DNA from: Syntrophobacter sp. SbD2
GTDB lineage: Bacteria > Desulfobacterota > Binatia > UBA9968
Reading direction: 5' to 3'
Length of the DNA: 34,467 bases
NCBI GenBank assembly: GCA_945889495.1
Contig: CAMDBU010000055.1
Span: forward strand, 1 to 34,467
Shown here: piece after piece, positions 12,290 through 34,299 of the stretch
Layout: each line of letters begins with the position of its first letter
Numbering within the stretch: the stretch's first letter is position 1
Program-made: the position numbers and the translations under genes
The notes under the pieces: model-generated
Seen by the model: the letters and a program-made list of their open reading frames with translations, nothing else
Told to the model about the DNA's origin: nothing
Databases searched by the model: none

Positions 12290-13279
12290 TCAGCGATACA
12301 AACGATCGATGTAACCGGACTTGTCGAGTTCTTCGAGAAATCGAATGTCGACGAAGTCTTTCGGGTCGGCGGTCTTCGCCGCCGGTATCTGATCGACCAG
12401 ATCGGCGAGAATGGTTTTGATTCCTTCCAATGACGGATACGGTTTGATCAGCGCGACGCGCTTGAGCAGCTGGTAGGTCTCCTCCAACTCGCGCTCGTCG
12501 TTGAGGCGCATCACCCGGTTGATCGCTTTCTTGGCGACGTCCGGATTGGTACGCATCAAGTGAATACCGTCGACAAACGACTTCACCACCCGGCGCGAGA
12601 TGTCGGGATTTTTGGCGACGTAGCGTTGCGTCGTCACCAGGCCGGTGTGCTGGAATGGAATTTTCATTTCTTCCAAATTGGCCAGCATGGTCATGCCAGC
12701 CTCCACCGCCTTGTTGAAACGCGGCGGTTGCAACAAGGTCGCGTCCACCGACTTGCCGAGGAGCGCGGTTAACAAAGTCGCCTCGCTGCCGATCTGCACG
12801 AAGGTCATGTCCTTGTCGGGATGGATGCCCAGCTTGGGCAGCGCCAGACGCGCGGCACGGTCCAGCGCCGCGCCGAAGCGCGAAGTGCCGAAACGCTTGC
12901 CTTTGAGATCAGCGGCACTCTTGATATCGCCGCGCGCCACCAGACGAAACAGCAAACGGTCGACGAAGCCCATGACCATGATCACATCCGCGCCCTGCAA
13001 GCGCGGCGCCGACAAGAGCGCGCCGGTCATCTCGCCAAAGGCGATCTCGCCGGCGATCAACGCCCGCTGCACCAGGGCGCTTTCGAGATAGAGCACTTCG
13101 ACATCCAAATTATTACGCGCGAATACTTTGCCCTCGTGGGCGATCCACAGCGGCGCCATGGTCACTGACGGCGCGCCGTAGCCGATGCGCAGTTTGTCGA
13201 CAGCCGGCAGAACCGCCGGCGAAAGAAAAACCACGAACAGAAGCAGGAGAAAATATTTCAATCGACCTGTCATATCCAC
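12290..13279 (-). CDS. ABC-type substrate-binding protein, NMT1/SsuA-like
   Basis: The 329-residue exported protein has a signal peptide (LKYFLLLLFVVFLSPAVLPA), then a type II periplasmic binding fold opening with DKLRIGYGAPSVTMAPLWIA. This is typical of the NMT1/THI5 and SsuA/TauA group, which bind small organic ligands such as sulfonates, pyrimidines or aromatic acids. The segment LKGKRFGTSRFGAALDRAAR is the usual ligand-loop helix. It starts with GTG at 13279, three bases after the upstream gene's stop; an ATG at 13273 is an alternative. It lies between another binding protein and the MmgE/PrpD gene. No permease or ATPase gene accompanies it, so its partner is elsewhere or it acts otherwise. 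Confidence 0.87.
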   Translation of the reverse strand: MDMTGRLKYFLLLLFVVFLSPAVLPAVDKLRIGYGAPSVTMAPLWIAHEGKVFARNNLDVEVLYLESALVQRALIAGEIAFGEMTGALLSAPRLQGADVIMVMGFVDRLLFRLVARGDIKSAADLKGKRFGTSRFGAALDRAARLALPKLGIHPDKDMTFVQIGSEATLLTALLGKSVDATLLQPPRFNKAVEAGMTMLANLEEMKIPFQHTGLVTTQRYVAKNPDISRRVVKSFVDGIHLMRTNPDVAKKAINRVMRLNDERELEETYQLLKRVALIKPYPSLEGIKTILADLVDQIPAAKTADPKDFVDIRFLEELDKSGYIDRLYR

Positions 13280-13282
13280 CGG

Positions 13283-14311
13283 CTATTTCTTGGCCCGCTC
13301 GACCAGCTCTTTGTAAAAACCGCTTTGCTTAACCCGGCGCACCGAGTCGTCGTTGACGACGTCCTCGATGCGCACCGCCTTGACCTTGGGATTGCTCAGC
13401 GCCAACAGCCGCTGCATGTTGCGGATGCCGGTCACTTCCGGCGCCACGTCAAGATTGTAAAGCCACTGCAAGGCGTTGTAACCGATCTCGGCTTCGCGCG
13501 CATCGGTGAGGCGCAAGTTTTTCATCAGCGACCGGACCACCGTATCCTTGCGCGCCGGGGTTTGCACGAACGCCACGGCATCGAGGACGCCGCGCAGCAC
13601 CGCGTCGGCGAGCGCACTGTTTTGTTTCAAGTACGCGCTCCGGCCGATCAACCCCAACCCTTGATAGGGAATCGTCGCTTTGCCGAGATCGAGGATGACG
13701 CGAAAGCCTTTGGCCTTGAGACCGCTGCTGAACGCGTAGCCGAGATAGGCGGCGTCGATGATGCCGTTGGCCAACGCCTGGGCGATCACCGATTGATCGC
13801 CGCCGATGACCATGACGTTAATCTTGTCGCGGCCCGGTTCCAAGCCAAAATGTTCCAGCGCCAGCATGGTCTGCGACCAGATGCCGCCGCCGATGCTCTG
13901 CACGCCGACCCGTTTGCCCCGCAAATCTTCCGGCGACCGGATCGCCGGCGCGACCATGATATCGCCCTCGGCTTTGTTGACGATGCCGCCGAACATCGCC
14001 AGATCCATGCCGCCCGCCGCCGCGCTCAACACCACGGCGGGAATACTGTAGACCATCTGAATCTCGCCGCTCGCCAAAGCCGCGACGGTCTGCGGCCCGG
14101 TGCGAATGTACACCAGCTGAACGTCGACCCCATGCTTGCGAAAAAAACCTTGCTCGACGCCCAACCAGAGCGCGACAACTTTCTCATTGAACGCCGCATG
14201 GGCCAAGCGCACCACCGGCAGATCGGCGGCAACTGCGGGCGCGGATAACAAACCGAAACAGCAAACAAGCAACCAAAGGGTTTTCAGTCTTGTGTGTAAG
14301 TAGTGTGCCAT
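13283..14311 (-). CDS. ABC-type substrate-binding protein, NMT1/SsuA-like
   Basis: The 342-residue protein starts with a signal peptide (LKTLWLLVCCFGLLSAPAVAA) and continues with PVVRLAHAAFNEKVVALWLG, the first strand and helix of the NMT1/SsuA-like periplasmic fold. LRGKRVGVQSIGGGIWSQTM matches the family's second ligand-binding segment. The open frame extends upstream to 14383, but those extra 24 residues are translated hairpin repeat (14332-14412), so the ATG at 14311 is preferred even though it has no clear Shine-Dalgarno. Its stop lies three bases before the next gene, another binding protein, giving a tight two-protein unit before MmgE/PrpD. The sequences differ enough that two different ligands are likely. 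Confidence 0.84.
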   Translation of the reverse strand: MAHYLHTRLKTLWLLVCCFGLLSAPAVAADLPVVRLAHAAFNEKVVALWLGVEQGFFRKHGVDVQLVYIRTGPQTVAALASGEIQMVYSIPAVVLSAAAGGMDLAMFGGIVNKAEGDIMVAPAIRSPEDLRGKRVGVQSIGGGIWSQTMLALEHFGLEPGRDKINVMVIGGDQSVIAQALANGIIDAAYLGYAFSSGLKAKGFRVILDLGKATIPYQGLGLIGRSAYLKQNSALADAVLRGVLDAVAFVQTPARKDTVVRSLMKNLRLTDAREAEIGYNALQWLYNLDVAPEVTGIRNMQRLLALSNPKVKAVRIEDVVNDDSVRRVKQSGFYKELVERAKK

Positions 14312-14331
14312 ACAGACGAAATTCGGAACAT

Positions 14332-14412
14332 CTCGCGCCAAGCACGCAAAGAACGCAAAGGAATTGGCTAAATAATATCCCAACTTTGCGACCTTGGCGC
14401 GCTTGGCGCGAG
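14332..14412. repeat. Intergenic hairpin repeat, GGCGCGAG family, copy 2
   Basis: CTCGCGCCAAGC (14332-14343) and GCTTGGCGCGAG (14401-14412) are perfect 12-base inverted ends. The inner GCAAAGAACGCAAAG faces CTTTGCGACC. It lies between the radical SAM gene and the substrate-binding protein gene, both on the minus strand, and supplies the false upstream extension of the latter frame. Confidence 0.8.
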
Positions 14413-21646: not shown

Positions 21647-21706
21647 CGGTCTGCGCGAAGCTTGGCATTGTCGGCTAACTCGTTTAGAAAAGTCGACGGA
21701 GGAAAC

Positions 21707-22696
21707 ATGCACACTGATAGATTTCGAACTTTGCTGGCCATCGTCGCCCTGCTCGCAATCGCTCCGGCGAGCTGGGCGGCGACAACTTTAACCCCCATAC
21801 GGCTCCTCTACCCGAGCTTCGCCGGCAGTTGGGCCACCGCGTGGATCGCCAAGGAGGCGGGATATTTCGCCCAAGAAGGTTTGGATGTCGAGCTCATCCG
21901 CGTCGGCGGCAGCACGCGCATGGTCGCCGCACTGCTCGGCGGCAGCGCACCGATCGTTCAGGCCGGCGCGTCGGCCGCCTTGGCCGCCACCGCCGCCGGC
22001 AGCGACGTGGTGATCATCGGCTCCACCGGCACGGTGTCGCCGTTTCGTTTGATCGCCCGCGCCGAGATCAAATCGCCAGCCGAATTGAAAGGCAAGAAAG
22101 CAGGCATCACCACCTTCGGCTCGACCTCAGACCAGATGGTCCGCATCGCGCTGAAAAAATTCAACCTCGAACCGAACAAGGATGTCGCGCTCCTCACCTT
22201 CGGCGCCCAACCCGAAGCCTTCGCGGCATTGATGAACGGCATCGTCCAAGTCGCCGCGCTGAGCTACCCGCTCTATCCCAAGGCGATCAAAGTCGGCATG
22301 CGCGAGCTGGTCAACTTCGGCGAGCTCGGCGTCGAGGACATCAACGGCACGGTGATCACGACGCGGGCGTTCCTGGCGCAACACCGCGACACCGCGCTGC
22401 GCTTCCTGCGCGGATTTACCCGCGGCATGCAACGCTATCGCACCGACAAGGAATTCAGCAAGAGAGTTCTCGGCAAATACGGCAAGATCAACGACGAGGA
22501 AACCTTGGAAGGCACCTGGCAGGACTACGCGCCGACGTTGCAGAGAAGCCCGCGCCCGGCGCTGAGCGCGGTGCAATACTTGATCGAGAATCAATTCGCC
22601 GGCAAAAAGCCGCTGCCGAAGCTCGAACAGTTCGTCGACACCTCGCTCGCCGATCAGCTGGAAAAGAGCGGCTTTGTCGACGCGCTGTATAAATGA
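21707..22696 (+). CDS. ABC-type substrate-binding protein, NMT1/SsuA-like
   Basis: The 329-residue exported protein has a signal peptide (FRTLLAIVALLAIAPASWA) followed by TPIRLLYPSFAGSWATAWIA, the first strand and helix of the NMT1/SsuA fold. LKGKKAGITTFGSTSDQMV is the usual second ligand-binding segment. The start at 21707 has GGAGG four bases upstream; a frame start at 21662 adds 15 residues without support. It lies between the Tat dipeptidase and a secreted amidohydrolase on the same strand, suggesting capture of a product or substrate of those enzymes. No permease or ATPase gene is in the window. Confidence 0.88.
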   Translation: MHTDRFRTLLAIVALLAIAPASWAATTLTPIRLLYPSFAGSWATAWIAKEAGYFAQEGLDVELIRVGGSTRMVAALLGGSAPIVQAGASAALAATAAGSDVVIIGSTGTVSPFRLIARAEIKSPAELKGKKAGITTFGSTSDQMVRIALKKFNLEPNKDVALLTFGAQPEAFAALMNGIVQVAALSYPLYPKAIKVGMRELVNFGELGVEDINGTVITTRAFLAQHRDTALRFLRGFTRGMQRYRTDKEFSKRVLGKYGKINDEETLEGTWQDYAPTLQRSPRPALSAVQYLIENQFAGKKPLPKLEQFVDTSLADQLEKSGFVDALYK

Positions 22697-24565: not shown

Positions 24566-25660
24566 ATGACGCTGGCCGCATTACTTGATACGCAAACCGC
24601 ATCCTCTCCGGCTTCCCACCTTCCCCCTCGATGGGGGAAGGCAAGGATAGGGGTGCTCCGAGTCTTGCCAACAATGCTACTCATGATTGCGCTGTTGAGT
24701 GCATTCAGCGCCAGCGCCGCCGCCCAATCCGACACCCTGCGCGTGTTTTTTTACCCGCCCTGGAATATCAGCAAGCTGCCCATGTACATGGCGCGCGACG
24801 CCGCTATCTTCGAGCGCAACGGCTTGAAGCTCAGCTGGACCAATCCTGGCTCCAACGACAAACTGCTCGCGGCGATAAAGAATGGCGAGGCCGACATCGT
24901 CGTCGCCAGCGCCAACCATATCGCCCACAACAACGCCTCGGGAGGTCCGGCACTGCGCCTGGTCGGCAACAGCGGTTTCAACTACTCGGCATTTTTCGCC
25001 GACGGCACGATCAAGAACGCCGCCGAACTCAAGGGCAAAAAAATCGGCACCGGCGAGCCCGGCAGCACGCCGGATCAGTTGACCCGGCTGGCGCTGCGCA
25101 AGTTGGGCATCGATCCGGACAAAGATGTGACGCTGATTCCTTTTGACGAAGGCAGGAACACCGACCGGGTGAAGGCGCTACTCGGCGGCAGCGTCGCGGC
25201 GATGATGATCACCGCGGAAACGATGTATGACATGGAAAAATCCGGCGCGATCAAGAAGGTCACGCGCTTGACCGACCACCGGCAGTTGAAAATTTACGCC
25301 GGCGGCGGCGCCGACTACGCGATTTCAGCGGCGCTCCTCAATAGCCGTCGTGACGACGCTAAGAAGTTCATGAGCGGTATCTGCGAAGGCATCTCACTTG
25401 CGCGCAAAGATCAAGCGAAGGCCAAGGAATTTGTCGCAAAGACCGGCAGGAACATGGACGCGGCGGGCATCGACTATCTGTACAAGCTCTACATGGCCGA
25501 CGTGATTCCAGCCAAGCCGTATCTCAAACCCGAAGGCGTCGATCTGGCGCTGCAAATGACCTCGGCCTTACTCCCCGCGGTGGCGGCGATGAAACCGGAA
25601 CAGCTCACCGACGCCGCGTTAGTGCCGGAGTTGGAAAAGGAAGGTCGCTGTAGTTTTTAG
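24566..25660 (+). CDS. ABC-type substrate-binding protein with repeat-derived N-terminal extension
   Basis: The 364-residue protein has a hydrophobic export segment at about residues 33-53 (LPTMLLMIALLSAFSASAAA), then the NMT1/SsuA fold (DTLRVFFYPPWNISKLPMYM; LKGKKIGTGEPGSTPDQLTR). The start is supported by TAGGAG six bases upstream, nine bases after the amidohydrolase stop. The first 32 residues are unusually long for a signal n-region. They contain SHLPPRWGKARIG, the in-frame translation of a CCCCCTCGATGGGGG hairpin repeat at 24619-24641. Either the repeat inserted in frame and export still works, or translation starts further in. It closes the unit with the binding protein and amidohydrolase upstream. 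Confidence 0.84.
   Translation: MTLAALLDTQTASSPASHLPPRWGKARIGVLRVLPTMLLMIALLSAFSASAAAQSDTLRVFFYPPWNISKLPMYMARDAAIFERNGLKLSWTNPGSNDKLLAAIKNGEADIVVASANHIAHNNASGGPALRLVGNSGFNYSAFFADGTIKNAAELKGKKIGTGEPGSTPDQLTRLALRKLGIDPDKDVTLIPFDEGRNTDRVKALLGGSVAAMMITAETMYDMEKSGAIKKVTRLTDHRQLKIYAGGGADYAISAALLNSRRDDAKKFMSGICEGISLARKDQAKAKEFVAKTGRNMDAAGIDYLYKLYMADVIPAKPYLKPEGVDLALQMTSALLPAVAAMKPEQLTDAALVPELEKEGRCSF
24619..24641. repeat. CCTTCCCCC hairpin repeat inside a coding region
   Basis: CCTTCCCCC and GGGGGAAGG form a perfect nine-base-pair stem with a TCGAT loop. The sequence belongs to the same type as 32703-32752 but lies within codons 18-26 of a substrate-binding protein gene, keeping the frame open. Confidence 0.7.
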
Positions 25661-25664
25661 CGGG

Positions 25665-25682
25665 TTCAGGGCTTGACCTGAA
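25665..25682. terminator. Small hairpin between convergent genes
   Basis: TTCAGG and CCTGAA pair around a six-base loop, directly after the substrate-binding protein stop and over the end of the opposing BON gene. A TTTTT precedes rather than follows it on the plus strand, so it is at best a weak terminator. Confidence 0.3.
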
Positions 25683-25977
25683 TATTGTTGACGACGCTCT
25701 TGACGCCGTTCACTTTGCCGGCGATCTCGCCGGCTTTGTTTTTCTTATCTTGCGAATCGACGCTGCCCTTCAACTTGGCGACGCCGTCGTCGACATCGAC
25801 ATCGATGCCCTGAACCGTCGCCCGGTCTTCACGCGCCAACTGAGCCTTGATGGTGGCAGTCAATTTGGCGTCCTCGAAATCCGGTCCGGACATTTTGTCT
25901 TTGATCGCCTGACAGCTGCCAAGGGCCGCACTGAGCAGCAGAACCACCGTGACAAACCGGATACGCGAAAATTTCAT
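25666..25977 (-). CDS. BON-domain lipoprotein
   Basis: The 103-residue protein has a signal with lipobox LGSC (Cys22), placing it in the envelope. One BON domain follows, about residues 35-101 (FEDAKLTATIKAQLARED, VDVDDGVAKLKGSV, VNGVKSVVNNIQVKP). BON domains bind phospholipid membranes, and homologues such as OsmY respond to osmotic or envelope stress. AAGGGA lies about eight bases before the ATG. It is transcribed downstream of a similar BON lipoprotein on the same strand, but a large folded element at 26001-26130 separates them. Confidence 0.9.
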   Translation of the reverse strand: MKFSRIRFVTVVLLLSAALGSCQAIKDKMSGPDFEDAKLTATIKAQLAREDRATVQGIDVDVDDGVAKLKGSVDSQDKKNKAGEIAGKVNGVKSVVNNIQVKP

Positions 25978-26201: not shown

Positions 26202-26510
26202 TTACGGCCCGACTTGCAGAGTATTGTTCACGCCCTTGACGCCACTGACCGTGCGACTCACCTGTTCGGCGCGGGCGCGGTCGGCAGCGGACTGCACCAC
26301 ACCAGTGAGATTCACGACCCCGCGCGTCGTATCGACGCTGACCCGCGTCAAGGTTGCCCCCTTGTCCGCCGCCAACGCGGCTTTGACGCGGGTAGTAATT
26401 CCGGTGTCGTCGATATTCTCGCCAACGGTCGATCCGGTCAGGGATTGACAGCCGGCGAGCACCAAAAATAGCACGACTAACGGTAGAATCGGTTTAAGCG
26501 TCTTCAACAT
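26202..26510 (-). CDS. BON-domain lipoprotein
   Basis: The 102-residue protein has a hydrophobic signal with lipobox LAGC (Cys21). A single BON domain follows, about residues 33-100 (IDDTGITTRVKAALAADKG, VDTTRGVVNLTGVVQS, VSGVKGVNNTLQVGP). It probably sits in the outer membrane or periplasm and binds phospholipid. GGAGG lies seven bases before the ATG. It is a diverged relative of the BON lipoprotein at 25666-25977, consistent with an old local duplication. The rhodanese-channel gene lies upstream on the same strand. Confidence 0.91.
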   Translation of the reverse strand: MLKTLKPILPLVVLFLVLAGCQSLTGSTVGENIDDTGITTRVKAALAADKGATLTRVSVDTTRGVVNLTGVVQSAADRARAEQVSRTVSGVKGVNNTLQVGP

Positions 26511-26591: not shown

Positions 26592-27545
26592 TCAACCGAT
26601 CCGGCGCGCCAGCTCTTGGATTTGATCCATGGAATCTTTCAATTCAGGCGCGTAGGTGCGCGGCACGCACTCGCCGCAAATGTCGTTGGCGAGGTTGGCG
26701 ATGGATTTGAATCCCGCGGTCAAGTTAGCCGACCGACTCGGCAGCGAGCCGCCGATATCCGCCAAGCCCTGTAAGCAGATGATCAAATTGGCGAGCAACG
26801 ACGCCATGGTCTCTTCATCGGGCATCACCCGGCAGCGGTAGAGCAGATCATGCACCGCCTGAAGCTCGCCACGAAACACCCGCACGGTGCTTTCAAGCCG
26901 GCGCAGCACCAGCTCCGGCAACACGCCCTGCTCCACTTGCAGTTGCTGCACCGAACCGAGGTCGGAAAAGACTAGATGCAAATTGGTCCGCACCCGGTCG
27001 AGCCGGTCTTCGAAGGTCGTGCGGTGAATCTCCTCGGTGAGCTCCTCCTGGCGGCGCGAGACGAGTTTTGAAATCACGCAGCCAAAGATCAGCAAACCGG
27101 CGGCGCCTTCGACGATTGCCGCCAGGCGAAACCAGCCGAGCGGCACGACATCGCCGTAGCCGATCGACAGAGCGGTGACGAAGCTAAAGTAAATCGCCGT
27201 GACCAATCCCTGGCCGTCGGCTTTGACCGCCTGGTTGCCCGCCTGCAAACCCATGCCCATGCCGACGCCGGCGATCCAGTAGAGCAAACCGAAAACCACG
27301 ATCATGGCGAGCCAAATAGCGATCAATCGCTCAAGCGAAAGCGCGGCGACTTTCTCCAGCCAGGATAGCCGTGGTGCTGCGACGGCAGCCGCGCCGGGGC
27401 TTGTCCCATTCGACAATGGAACCACAGCGCTAGTCGCCGGCTCCACCGCCCCGCCGCTCCCCAGCCACTCCGCCATGCCGCCAACGTAGTAACGCAAGTT
27501 GGTATAGCCGATCTCAGCGAGCAAGCCGACCGCCTGCTTGCCCAA
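26592..27545 (-). CDS. Two-helix potassium-type ion channel (downstream part of a rhodanese fusion)
   Basis: This frame begins two codons after an in-frame TGA and contains the second half of a rhodanese domain (KQAVGLLAEIGYTNLRYYVG and GMAEW), then an ion channel of the two-helix type. The first helix is at about residues 71-95 (ERLIAIWLAMIVVFGLLYWIAG), the pore has the selectivity filter SIGYGD (127-132), and the second helix is at about 141-161. A long helical cytoplasmic tail of about 150 residues follows. A split start at TTG 27545 makes little sense because it would begin inside the rhodanese fold; an ATG at 27476 is another possible internal start. The whole gene is best read with 27549-27791, see the TGA entry. 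Confidence 0.85.
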   Translation of the reverse strand: MGKQAVGLLAEIGYTNLRYYVGGMAEWLGSGGAVEPATSAVVPLSNGTSPGAAAVAAPRLSWLEKVAALSLERLIAIWLAMIVVFGLLYWIAGVGMGMGLQAGNQAVKADGQGLVTAIYFSFVTALSIGYGDVVPLGWFRLAAIVEGAAGLLIFGCVISKLVSRRQEELTEEIHRTTFEDRLDRVRTNLHLVFSDLGSVQQLQVEQGVLPELVLRRLESTVRVFRGELQAVHDLLYRCRVMPDEETMASLLANLIICLQGLADIGGSLPSRSANLTAGFKSIANLANDICGECVPRTYAPELKDSMDQIQELARRIG

Positions 27546-27551
27546 CGGTCA
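27519..27551 (-). promoter_or_regulatory. In-frame TGA with following hairpin: candidate Sec codon and bacterial SECIS
   Basis: The TGA at 27549-27551 interrupts a frame that is otherwise continuous from 27791 to 26592 (399 residues plus this codon). After it, GGGCAAGC (27543-27536) pairs with GCTTGCTC (27526-27519), eight base pairs with one G-U. The nine-base loop AGGCGGTCG has G as its second base. Bacterial SECIS elements have this general form, but here the loop starts about 13 bases from the TGA, a little closer than the usual 16 or more. A nonsense mutation or sequencing error remains possible. Confidence 0.45.
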
Positions 27552-27791
27552 AGTCGGCCCAGCGCAATAGATCGCGATTTCTTGTTGGAGGTTGGACAGC
27601 AGCTGAAGCGCTTTAGTGGGAATATCGGCGATGGGCAAACTCAGCGAACCGGGAATGTGACCGGCCTTGAACGAGTCGGCCGGCATGACGTTGACGATCG
27701 CCAGGGCGCGGTCTTGCAGGCGGGCGAGGATTTCCTCGCGGGGAATTAGCGAATATGAATGAACCGTTTCTGCGTTTTTCGGGTTTGCCAT
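27549..27791 (-). CDS. Rhodanese domain, N-terminal part up to in-frame TGA
   Basis: The 80 residues before the TGA are the first two-thirds of a single rhodanese domain: IPREEILARLQDRALAIVNV, the conserved FKAGHIPGSLSLPIADI, and IAIYCAGPT with catalytic Cys76. The rest of the domain (PLGKQAVGLLAEIGYTNLRY and YVGGMAEWL) follows in the same frame after the TGA. In the YCxGPxC rhodanese group, the residue five after the catalytic Cys is normally a second Cys, and that is exactly the TGA position (codon 81). The gene as a whole would encode a rhodanese joined to a potassium-type channel, as if a sulfur or redox signal controlled ion flow. Confidence 0.75.
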   Translation of the reverse strand: MANPKNAETVHSYSLIPREEILARLQDRALAIVNVMPADSFKAGHIPGSLSLPIADIPTKALQLLSNLQQEIAIYCAGPT

Positions 27792-30809: not shown

Positions 30810-31805
30810 CTACCTCGAATATAATCGCTTAATAAACCCCGACCGCTCCATCTCCTCGACGAAACTGCCATCGACAAACTCTTTCGGATTCGCTTCACCC
30901 GCTTTGGGAGTTTTCCCAGCGATGTCGTCGAGCAGCGTCTTCACGCCGTCGGGCGTCGGACTGGGCACTTCGGGGAACAGTGGGCGGAAGCTGTTGTAGG
31001 TGCGCTCTAAGTTTTCCGCGTCGGTGGTGCGCAGGTATTTACCGATGATGGCTTTGGTCCAGTCTTTTTCAGTCTTATAGATGTGAATCGCTTCGGTCAT
31101 GGCGCGGACGAAACGGGCGAACACCGGGCGGCGCGCTTTGATCGTGACTTCGCGCGACAGCACGCCGGCCCAGTGGAAGGGAATTTTTAGCGCGCCGACA
31201 TCAACCAAAGTCTTGAAGCCAACCTTTTCCGCTTCGCGGACGAAAGGTTCGGTGGAGATACCGAATTGGATGAGTCCTTTGGCCATCGCGGCCACCGCTT
31301 GGGCCGTGCCGCCGACGGACAACAGCTTCACGTCCTTTTCCGGGTCGAGGCCGAAACGGCGCAGCACCAGGCGAATACCGAGATCGGTGGACGCACCGAA
31401 GCGATTGATACCGCCGCTCTTGCCGCGCAGTTCCTGAACCGAATTGATCGACTTCAGCGCGACCAATTGATTGGGAAAGGTCGGCATCACCGCCATCAGC
31501 ATAACGACATCGATGCCGGCCAGCCGCGCGCTGACCAGATTGCTCACCCCGGTGACGTTCAAATCGACATCGCCCGCGACCATCGCTTGCAGCGCCGCCG
31601 GGCTGGCATTGATCTGCACGATCTCAGCGGCGATGTTATATTTCTTGAGCAGCCCGCGTTCCTGAAGAATCCACACCGGCGCCGTGGAGCCGCCGCCGGC
31701 GTAAGCGATGCGCAGTTTGTCTTGCGCGATTGCAGCTAGAGGCACGAACAAGAAAACCAACAGCGCACAGAACAGAGATGAAGAATGCTTCGACAGGCTC
31801 AGCAT
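30810..31805 (-). CDS. ABC-type substrate-binding protein with repeat-encoded signal start
   Basis: The 331-residue exported protein begins MLSLSKHSSSLFCALLVF, then LFVPLAAIA, a working-looking signal peptide, and continues with the NMT1/SsuA fold (DKLRIAYAGGGSTAPVWILQ; LRGKSGGINRFGASTDLGI). The first residues MLSLSKHS are the translation of the hairpin repeat at 31789-31863, so the repeat supplies the start codon and basic n-region. A further upstream ATG at 31854-31856, also in the repeat and with GGAG ten bases before it, would add 17 residues. Neither start is certain. The gene stands alone on the minus strand, with no permease or ATPase nearby. Confidence 0.83.
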   Translation of the reverse strand: MLSLSKHSSSLFCALLVFLFVPLAAIAQDKLRIAYAGGGSTAPVWILQERGLLKKYNIAAEIVQINASPAALQAMVAGDVDLNVTGVSNLVSARLAGIDVVMLMAVMPTFPNQLVALKSINSVQELRGKSGGINRFGASTDLGIRLVLRRFGLDPEKDVKLLSVGGTAQAVAAMAKGLIQFGISTEPFVREAEKVGFKTLVDVGALKIPFHWAGVLSREVTIKARRPVFARFVRAMTEAIHIYKTEKDWTKAIIGKYLRTTDAENLERTYNSFRPLFPEVPSPTPDGVKTLLDDIAGKTPKAGEANPKEFVDGSFVEEMERSGFIKRLYSR

Positions 31806-31863
31806 GAACGGATTCTTGTGACGCAGTTCCGATGTAATGCCGTTCGTCCTGAGCATTGTCGAA
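31789..31863. repeat. TTCGACAGGCTCAG hairpin repeat overlapping a gene start
   Basis: TTCGACAGGCTCAGCATGAA (then CGG) and CCGTTCGTCCTGAGCATTGT (then CGAA) form an imperfect inverted pair with a 28-base loop. This sequence type is common between genes in many unrelated environmental bacteria. Here it overlaps the 5' end of a substrate-binding protein gene. Confidence 0.75.
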
Positions 31864-33336: not shown

Positions 33337-34299
33337 CTAGCGCTTTCTCAGCTCCGCGCGCACCTCGCGCAGGATCGACAGATCGACCAGCCGGTCGGCG
33401 GGGATCTCGGCGGCCAGCCCGGACTCCTGGCGAATCTTGTCAATGATCCCTTTCAAGGTCGCGTCATCGATGTCGCCGTCGGGGTTGAGCACCTTGAGCA
33501 AAATCTTGTAGCTTTCGCCGGCGACTTTTTGATCGAGGCCGAAATCTTTCTGGATGAACGCGATGACCTCGGCTTCGTTTTTAAGAATCAGCTCGTTGCT
33601 GCGCAAGACGGCGCGGATCATCGCTTTGACTTGCTCGCGGCGGCTTTGCACATGGCTCACCCGGCCGACGATGCCGCCCTGCAGGTCGCGCACGTCGAAA
33701 GTATCGCCAAGGTCGGCGTAGCCCGCCAAGGTCGCCATCGAAGTAAACGGCGGCGTCAAGATCGCCGCGTCGACGGCTTTGGCGGTCAGCGACTGAAAAC
33801 TGCTCGGTGTCGTGGTGGTGGCGATGTAGACGATCTTATCGTTGGCACCGTCGCGGCCGAGCCGGCGCGCCACAGTCATAGCGGCAGTGTGCGCGAGAGA
33901 ACCGATGCCGCTGACCGCGATATTACGCAGCCGCGCTCCCGTCATGCCCGGCTGGCCGACCAGAGTAAAGCTCAGCCGGGTTTGAATGAACATGTACGCC
34001 TTGAGCGGTAGGCCCTTGATCGCCGCGCGCAGCGCCACACCAGTCGACCCGCCGTAGTCGACCTCACCCGCCTGCAGCGCGGTCACGCCGATCGGCGGCC
34101 GCATGGCGATGATCTCCAGATCGATGCCTTCGCGCTCGAAGATCCCCTTCGACTTGCCGTAATAATAGGGCAGCAACGTCAACGCCTTGGCCGCCACCGC
34201 CAGGCGAACCCGTTCAAATGGTTTCTTGTCCTGCTGGGCGTGCAAGGACGGCACGGCGATGAGGATAAGAGCGAGCAACAATAACTTCGCTGTGCGCAT
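33337..34299 (-). CDS. ABC-type substrate-binding protein, NMT1/SsuA-like
   Basis: The 320-residue exported protein has a signal peptide (AKLLLLALILIAVPSLHA) followed by ERVRLAVAAKALTLLPYYYG and KSKGIFEREGIDLEIIAM, the N-terminal lobe of the NMT1/SsuA fold. AVSGIGSLAHTAAMTVARRL is the second ligand segment, and VDAAILTPPF lies in the second lobe. It is the sixth such protein in the window and, like the rest, has no permease or ATPase gene beside it. No clear Shine-Dalgarno precedes the ATG. A structured element at 34384-34446 lies upstream. Confidence 0.86.
   Translation of the reverse strand: MRTAKLLLLALILIAVPSLHAQQDKKPFERVRLAVAAKALTLLPYYYGKSKGIFEREGIDLEIIAMRPPIGVTALQAGEVDYGGSTGVALRAAIKGLPLKAYMFIQTRLSFTLVGQPGMTGARLRNIAVSGIGSLAHTAAMTVARRLGRDGANDKIVYIATTTTPSSFQSLTAKAVDAAILTPPFTSMATLAGYADLGDTFDVRDLQGGIVGRVSHVQSRREQVKAMIRAVLRSNELILKNEAEVIAFIQKDFGLDQKVAGESYKILLKVLNPDGDIDDATLKGIIDKIRQESGLAAEIPADRLVDLSILREVRAELRKR

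Follow-up and report, generated by a model that had tools for sequence, protein, structure and literature searches.

The window analysed here is a stretch of 34,467 nucleotides from Syntrophobacter sp. SbD2 (contig CAMDBU010000055.1 of assembly GCA_945889495.1). On its minus strand, a single open frame runs from 27791 to 26592, and its sole internal stop is a TGA at codon 81 (Table 1). An earlier note on this DNA had read the frame as one gene, broken only by this TGA, for a rhodanese fused to a potassium-type channel, and translation bore out the frame. Judged from its sequence, the gene combines a predicted rhodanese with a predicted two-helix K+-type channel. Directly downstream on the same strand lie two genes for small BON-domain proteins (25666-25977 and 26202-26510), and six NMT1/THI5-like ABC substrate-binding proteins (PF09084) are dispersed across the 34-kb window.

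Table 1. Features of the fused gene and of the surrounding window, in window coordinates
Feature	Position	Strand	Basis or remark
Whole gene: rhodanese, two-helix K+-type pore and helical C-terminal domain, with predicted Sec codon 81	26592..27791	-	
Rhodanese domain, residues 19-110, across the TGA	27462..27737	-	Pfam PF00581, 50.8 bits read through
Cys76 codon, catalytic Cys in the rhodanese loop	27564..27566	-	Invariant in family alignment A3
UGA codon 81, predicted Sec	27549..27551	-	TGA in 23/24, TGT in 1/24 distinct genes
Predicted bacterial SECIS hairpin (stem of 7 bp, GGUCG loop, 17-nt spacing from the UGA)	27520..27538	-	RNAfold, kept by most relatives
First pore-domain helix, residues 153-178	27258..27335	-	AlphaFold2 model; Ion_trans_2
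Selectivity filter SIGYGD, residues 209-214	27150..27167	-	
Second pore-domain helix, residues 221-245; the long helix continues beyond in the model	27057..27131	-	AlphaFold2 model
C-terminal helical domain, residues 246-399, without a named family	26595..27056	-	Predicted model, residues 245-399
C-terminal CxxC (Cys372, Cys375) within ICxxCVP	26667..26678	-	22/22 genes with a complete 3′ end
Terminal TGA of the fused gene, read as stop	26592..26594	-	
PF09084 proteins	12290-13279, 13283-14383, 21662-22696, 24566-25660, 30810-31856, 33337-34299		

The sequence upstream of the TGA alone matched the Pfam Rhodanese family at 33.3 bits, compared with 50.8 bits when the TGA was read through (cut-off 22.2), in agreement with the earlier claim that the TGA splits one rhodanese domain. 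Cys76 was kept in all 23 family genes in which this position is visible (L070 is cut). Residue 81 lies five positions after Cys76, at what we take to be the end of the rhodanese active-site loop. Rhodaneses filled the structural match lists of the full-length model; among them were 3nhv (Z 17.8, rmsd 6.1, 123 residues aligned) and 3tp9 (Z 17.6, rmsd 1.5, 104 residues aligned).

The two-helix channel with an SIGYGD filter that the earlier note had placed downstream was recovered as an Ion_trans_2 match (Pfam) at residues 161-245 of the window protein, with 47.8 bits. The selectivity filter of the window channel is TALSIGYGDVVP. A GYGD or GFGD filter is present in all 24 distinct genes of the family described below, Ion_trans_2 was matched in each of the 14 members scanned, and the family profile matched KcsA chains at E 5.7e-8. 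In an AlphaFold2 model of the full-length protein, made with an alignment of 14 members (pLDDT 79.2, pTM 0.40), the order is rhodanese, low-confidence linker (residues 120-142), helix 153-178, pore helix, second long helix and helical C-terminus.

Folded alone, C-terminal residues 245-399 gave a confident model (pLDDT 89.0, pTM 0.82). No convincing family match was found for this domain, single members being matched at chance level, and Foldseek gave no PDB match at E of 0.001 or below. The best hit in a sequence search of the PDB was a designed protein (E 0.013). The best VIA-align match was 7uc6 (STAT5a; rmsd 2.8, 132 residues aligned) with Z 12.6, which is in the range described by the tool as common among helical bundles. 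An ICxxCVP motif, overlooked in the earlier note, was found in this domain in all 22 family genes with a complete 3′ end.

When 395 genomes of the phylum were searched, two relatives apart from the window came up, each carrying a single TGA. Named genome contigs, when scanned, yielded 23 loci; of these, 13 encode relatives of the fused protein (a contig end truncates two of them) and 10 match the channel region only. Within the window's class, 148 genomes were searched with a profile, and 19 carriers including the window were found, each with exactly one TGA. After removal of repeats, 24 distinct genes were left (the window, L030-L042, L059-L063, L065, L066 and L068-L070). The 13 named relatives, which are all from MAGs labelled Deltaproteobacteria, Acidobacteria, Candidatus Binataceae or Proteobacteria, range from 74% down to 40% identity with the window protein.

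For these 24 genes, we compared the codon at position 81. It was TGA in 23 genes and TGT (Cys) in one, L037, which encodes a full-length Cys form of the fused protein; the frame ran on in all 24. In the tree, L037 was placed within a 15-row group beside 14 Sec genes (support 100/99). A change from Sec to Cys in L037 would fit this placement, with the midpoint root of the tree serving for drawing only.

Outside the family, a tblastn search of plasmids gave 12 matches to the rhodanese region with 34-39% identity, seven of which are annotated as ArsR/SmtB-family regulators. Cys was present at the Sec site in all eight of the 12 that were inspected, and their loops read YCRGPYC (six), YCRGPWC (one) or YCSNPAC (one). 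The earlier note states that YCxGPxC-type rhodaneses carry a second Cys five positions after the catalytic one. No relative was confirmed among the viral contigs searched, and nothing in the phage records matched the fused protein at 1e-5.

The TGA at codon 81 might be a true stop, in which case the locus would code for two separate proteins or be a pseudogene, or its sequence would contain an assembly error. The TGA does formally split the frame, standard gene calling divides the fused gene into two ORFs, and a separate ORF starting with TTG at 27545 exists downstream. However, we rejected two ORFs or a pseudogene because the identical TGA recurs in 23 of the 24 genes, in many genomes, with the protein conserved on both sides. 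The full-length Cys form in L037 also argues against a stop, which would break the domain inside its active-site loop, so that we regard this explanation as highly improbable.

An open frame over the TGA would fit readthrough of any kind, including general or suppressor readthrough with insertion of a residue other than Sec, for instance Trp or Gly. Against this, TGA serves as a normal stop elsewhere in this DNA, as stated in the earlier note, in which general reassignment of the code was judged unlikely. It terminates 11 of the 32 hand-picked ORFs of the window, the fused gene included, and 10 of the 21 complete genes with TGA at codon 81; for this reason, we also rejected code reassignment. 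Relatives have Cys at the site and the genome has a complete Sec pathway, which leaves insertion of another residue with a very low probability.

This pathway was found in the source genome (G000; 5.64 Mb, 95.6% complete) as selA (614.4 bits), selB (411.2 bits) and selD (377.2 bits), in a row on contig C26, and as a tRNA-Sec on contig C78 (73.1 bits), which was called by ARAGORN as tRNA-SeC with anticodon tca. Across the family, selA was found in 23 of 24 carrier genomes. Within the class, it was found in 123 of 148 genomes and in 18 of the 19 carriers; selA is thus common across the class, and its co-occurrence with the fused gene says little.

A tRNA-Sec match of at least 60 bits was found in the genomes of nine of the 13 named relatives. 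Two further relatives' genomes passed the gathering score for tRNA-Sec only near 50 bits, and these matches may be tRNA-Ser. In the genome of L030, a draft of about 670 contigs and 93% completeness, neither selA nor tRNA-Sec was found over the cut-off; in that of L031, selA was present and no tRNA-Sec was found over the cut-off. The genome with the Cys gene L037 has selA, too, plus a tRNA-Sec of 71.5 bits.

The selD of the source genome (L025:1501-2427, contig C26), adjoining selA and selB, is itself a predicted selenoprotein gene, with a TGA at SAGUAAK. This fits the UxxK motif with which SelD is listed in Table 1 of PMC13188914.

A hairpin follows the UGA, as the earlier note had it. The stem that is preferred by RNAfold in the window and kept by most relatives has 7 bp (27538-27532 with 27526-27520) and the loop GGUCG, and the family consensus is AGCAGGC-loop-GCCUGCU at nt 11-29 downstream of the UGA. 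The 8-bp register given in the earlier note (27543-27536 with 27526-27519), which had been drawn up by eye, is one of two possible pairings and the less conserved one. The remark that the hairpin is slightly closer than usual did not hold either, because 17 nt separate the loop of the conserved stem from the UGA, within the published 16-37 nt.

The published criteria for a bSECIS are a loop of 3-9 nt, a stem of 4-16 bp, a G in the first two loop places, a spacing of 16-37 nt and an energy of -7.5 or lower (PMC13188914, Fig. 2 legend). Scored with a custom script using hairpin-only energies, the window hairpin falls within all of these limits (7 bp, loop GGTCG, spacing 17, energy -9.9). With the window counted, 17 of the 23 TGA genes passed, compared with 8.9% among 7546 other codons of these genes; the six that failed were L035, L038, L042, L065, L066 and L070. 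The Cys gene L037 failed at -7.0, with five of the seven pairs left and these non-contiguous. Among the plasmid Cys rhodaneses, two of eight passed with hairpins located elsewhere; at most two of the seven stem pairs were kept in seven of the eight, and five in the other.

Within the family, at least six of the seven stem pairs were kept in 20 of the 23 TGA genes (L035 had four, L038 and L065 five each). In total, 147 of 161 pair cells were paired, compared with a mean of 111.7 in synonymous recodings (sd 4.7; maximum 128 among 5000 sets). This excess suggests that codon choice favours the stem beyond the demand of the protein, although relatedness among the genes calls for caution.

Covariation of the hairpin was not above that of shuffles, with 91.3% of cells paired, one double-changed pair and 94 to 130 of 500 shuffles reaching an equal value. 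Folding energy relative to synonymous recodings gave a weak signal for single genes (p 0.195 for the window); mean z was -1.27 over the 23 TGA genes, and z was +0.08 for the Cys gene. The conserved hairpin was absent from the best structure of L035, L038 and L042 in 45-nt folds, and a longer-loop alternative was preferred by L030 and L059 in the 33-nt fold. Rfam gave no match at gathering score within the window; near the fused gene, two weak matches at E up to 10 were far below that score.

The Sec machinery, the comparison at codon 81 and the hairpin all support the proposal of the earlier note that TGA 81 stands for Sec. Of the checks suggested in that note, the three computational ones, namely Sec genes in the genome, the residue at position 81 in homologues and the scoring of the SECIS, each came out in favour of the proposal. 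In comparative terms, the fused gene thus has the marks of a predicted bacterial selenoprotein gene, and we consider it almost certain that its UGA 81 encodes Sec. The family, which is easily missed because gene calling yields two ORFs, should be annotated as one selenoprotein.

Clustering of ORFs over the 24 loci gave no neighbour common to more than four loci, and those shared by three or four came from close relatives. One cluster of eight loci consisted of opposite-strand ORFs overlapping the fused gene itself. Near the fused gene, L068 and L069 have in common a membrane protein that resembles a SulP-type transporter, by eye only. In the genome of L040, a gene lying some 100 bases upstream of the fused one (L028:2810-4183, minus strand) encodes a diadenylate cyclase (CdaA_N and DAC; 106.3 bits for DAC) fused in frame to YbbR (42.7 bits). 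As c-di-AMP controls K+ transport, a diadenylate cyclase beside a channel gene is suggestive, and a link between c-di-AMP and K+ is possible in this relative, which is one of 24 loci.

We propose the following working of the fused protein. The cell's own SelA, SelB, SelD and tRNA-Sec would translate UGA 81 as Sec, with the downstream hairpin as the directing signal. The product would be a two-helix K+-type channel similar to KcsA, presumably tetrameric, that has the loop C76-x-x-x-x-U81 in its N-terminal rhodanese and a CxxC in its C-terminal domain; the tetramer, the cytosolic placement and the K+ selectivity would follow by analogy with KcsA and from the GYGD filter. Cys76 may take sulfane sulfur or become oxidised, and the reactive Sec81 may then give a fast, reversible Cys-Sec or perselenide state. 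This change of state, perhaps relayed via the CxxC, would open or close the pore, and K+ flux would thereby be coupled to reactive-sulfur or oxidant stress.

The presence of a thiol-selenol pair on one side of a K+-type pore and of a CxxC on the other suggests such persulfide or redox control of K+ flux; the earlier note had already proposed that a CxxxxU pair could gate the channel or sense for it. That the rhodanese or the CxxC acts on the pore is something we infer; none of the computed results links either part to the pore, the full model having a pTM of 0.40, and neighbouring genes are common to close relatives only. The account as a whole, a selenoprotein K+ channel with redox- or persulfide-gated K+ flux, is the one that we favour, with moderate confidence.

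The protein might instead be a selenoprotein whose rhodanese is a membrane-tethered sulfurtransferase, with a pore that exports or merely adjoins the product and a Sec that speeds catalysis without any gating. The rhodanese fold is intact, its catalytic Cys is present, and YgaP offers a precedent as a cytosolic rhodanese with two transmembrane helices, hypothesised to be an exporter of SCN- (PMC4730233). However, a K+-type pore, as indicated by the GYGD or GFGD filter throughout the family, would be a poor path for an anion, and the invariant C-terminal CxxC would be left without a role. We therefore consider a tethered sulfurtransferase unlikely.

The Cys/Sec pair and the CxxC might also serve as ligands for a soft metal or metalloid (Hg, As, Cu or Zn), the occupancy of which would gate or localise the channel. 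CxxC is a common metal ligand pair, and the plasmid rhodanese relatives include proteins annotated as ArsR/SmtB metalloregulators; CxxxxU, however, is the rhodanese active-site loop, and we know of no metal site of this form. Several transporter-type selenoproteins have been linked to resistance against metals or metalloids (PMC13188914, section 7), but no metal-resistance gene was found among the shared neighbours of the family loci. Metal binding as the signal seems to us quite improbable.

For the proposed redox- or persulfide-gated channel, translation without Sec would yield 80 residues and not reach the pore, and selenium supply would thus also decide whether a channel is produced. In its fullest form, the proposal is that of a first selenoprotein ion channel, Cys-Sec-gated through its rhodanese, with the CxxC as relay, a K+ flux tied to persulfide or redox state and a selenium-dependent synthesis; we put this forward tentatively, as an idea that may well prove wrong in one part or another. 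If true, it would extend selenocysteine chemistry to the control of ion flow. It would also make the fused family a simple system, UGA versus UGC, in which to ask what Sec adds to a sulfur sensor.

A recent inventory (PMC13188914, 2026) lists 119 prokaryotic selenoprotein families and subfamilies, among them five rhodanese forms with the motifs UxxS, UxxG, CxU, UxxG and UxxxxU. Forms 1-4 likewise have a predicted Sec in a rhodanese, but their motifs are not CxxxxU and no channel is named for them. Its section 7 and Table 1 have no CxxxxU rhodanese and include transporter-type selenoproteins but no channel, the word 'channel' occurring 0 times in the text of the paper. Under its rule, forms that differ in Sec motif count as separate subfamilies, and the fused family would therefore be a new one. 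In the PMC literature searched, a rhodanese-channel selenoprotein was not found.

The nearest known selenoprotein is TsoB (NF045694), a rhodanese/DsbD fusion-like selenoprotein that is rhodanese form 5 in Table 1 of PMC13188914. Like the window protein, it is predicted to be a selenoprotein, joins a rhodanese to a second part and has a Sec five positions after the first loop position (UxxxxU). In contrast to the window family, which has Cys at the first position in all 23 visible genes, TsoB has two Sec, the first position being Sec, and its partner is by name DsbD-like, not a K+ channel. The window protein scored 24.3 bits against NF045694, compared with a cut-off of 805, and is not TsoB.

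The closest rhodanese domains found beyond the family are those of the plasmid YCxGPxC rhodaneses, which have Cys for Sec and are without a channel. E. coli YgaP also has a rhodanese followed by two transmembrane helices, but it is described as dimeric, with a short transmembrane domain and a proposed function in SCN- export, and Sec is not mentioned in the abstract and opening text of that description (PMC4730233). KcsA, named pH-gated in its entries, and other two-helix K+ channels are without rhodanese or Sec, but share with the fused protein the pore helix, the GYGD filter and the two-helix pore.
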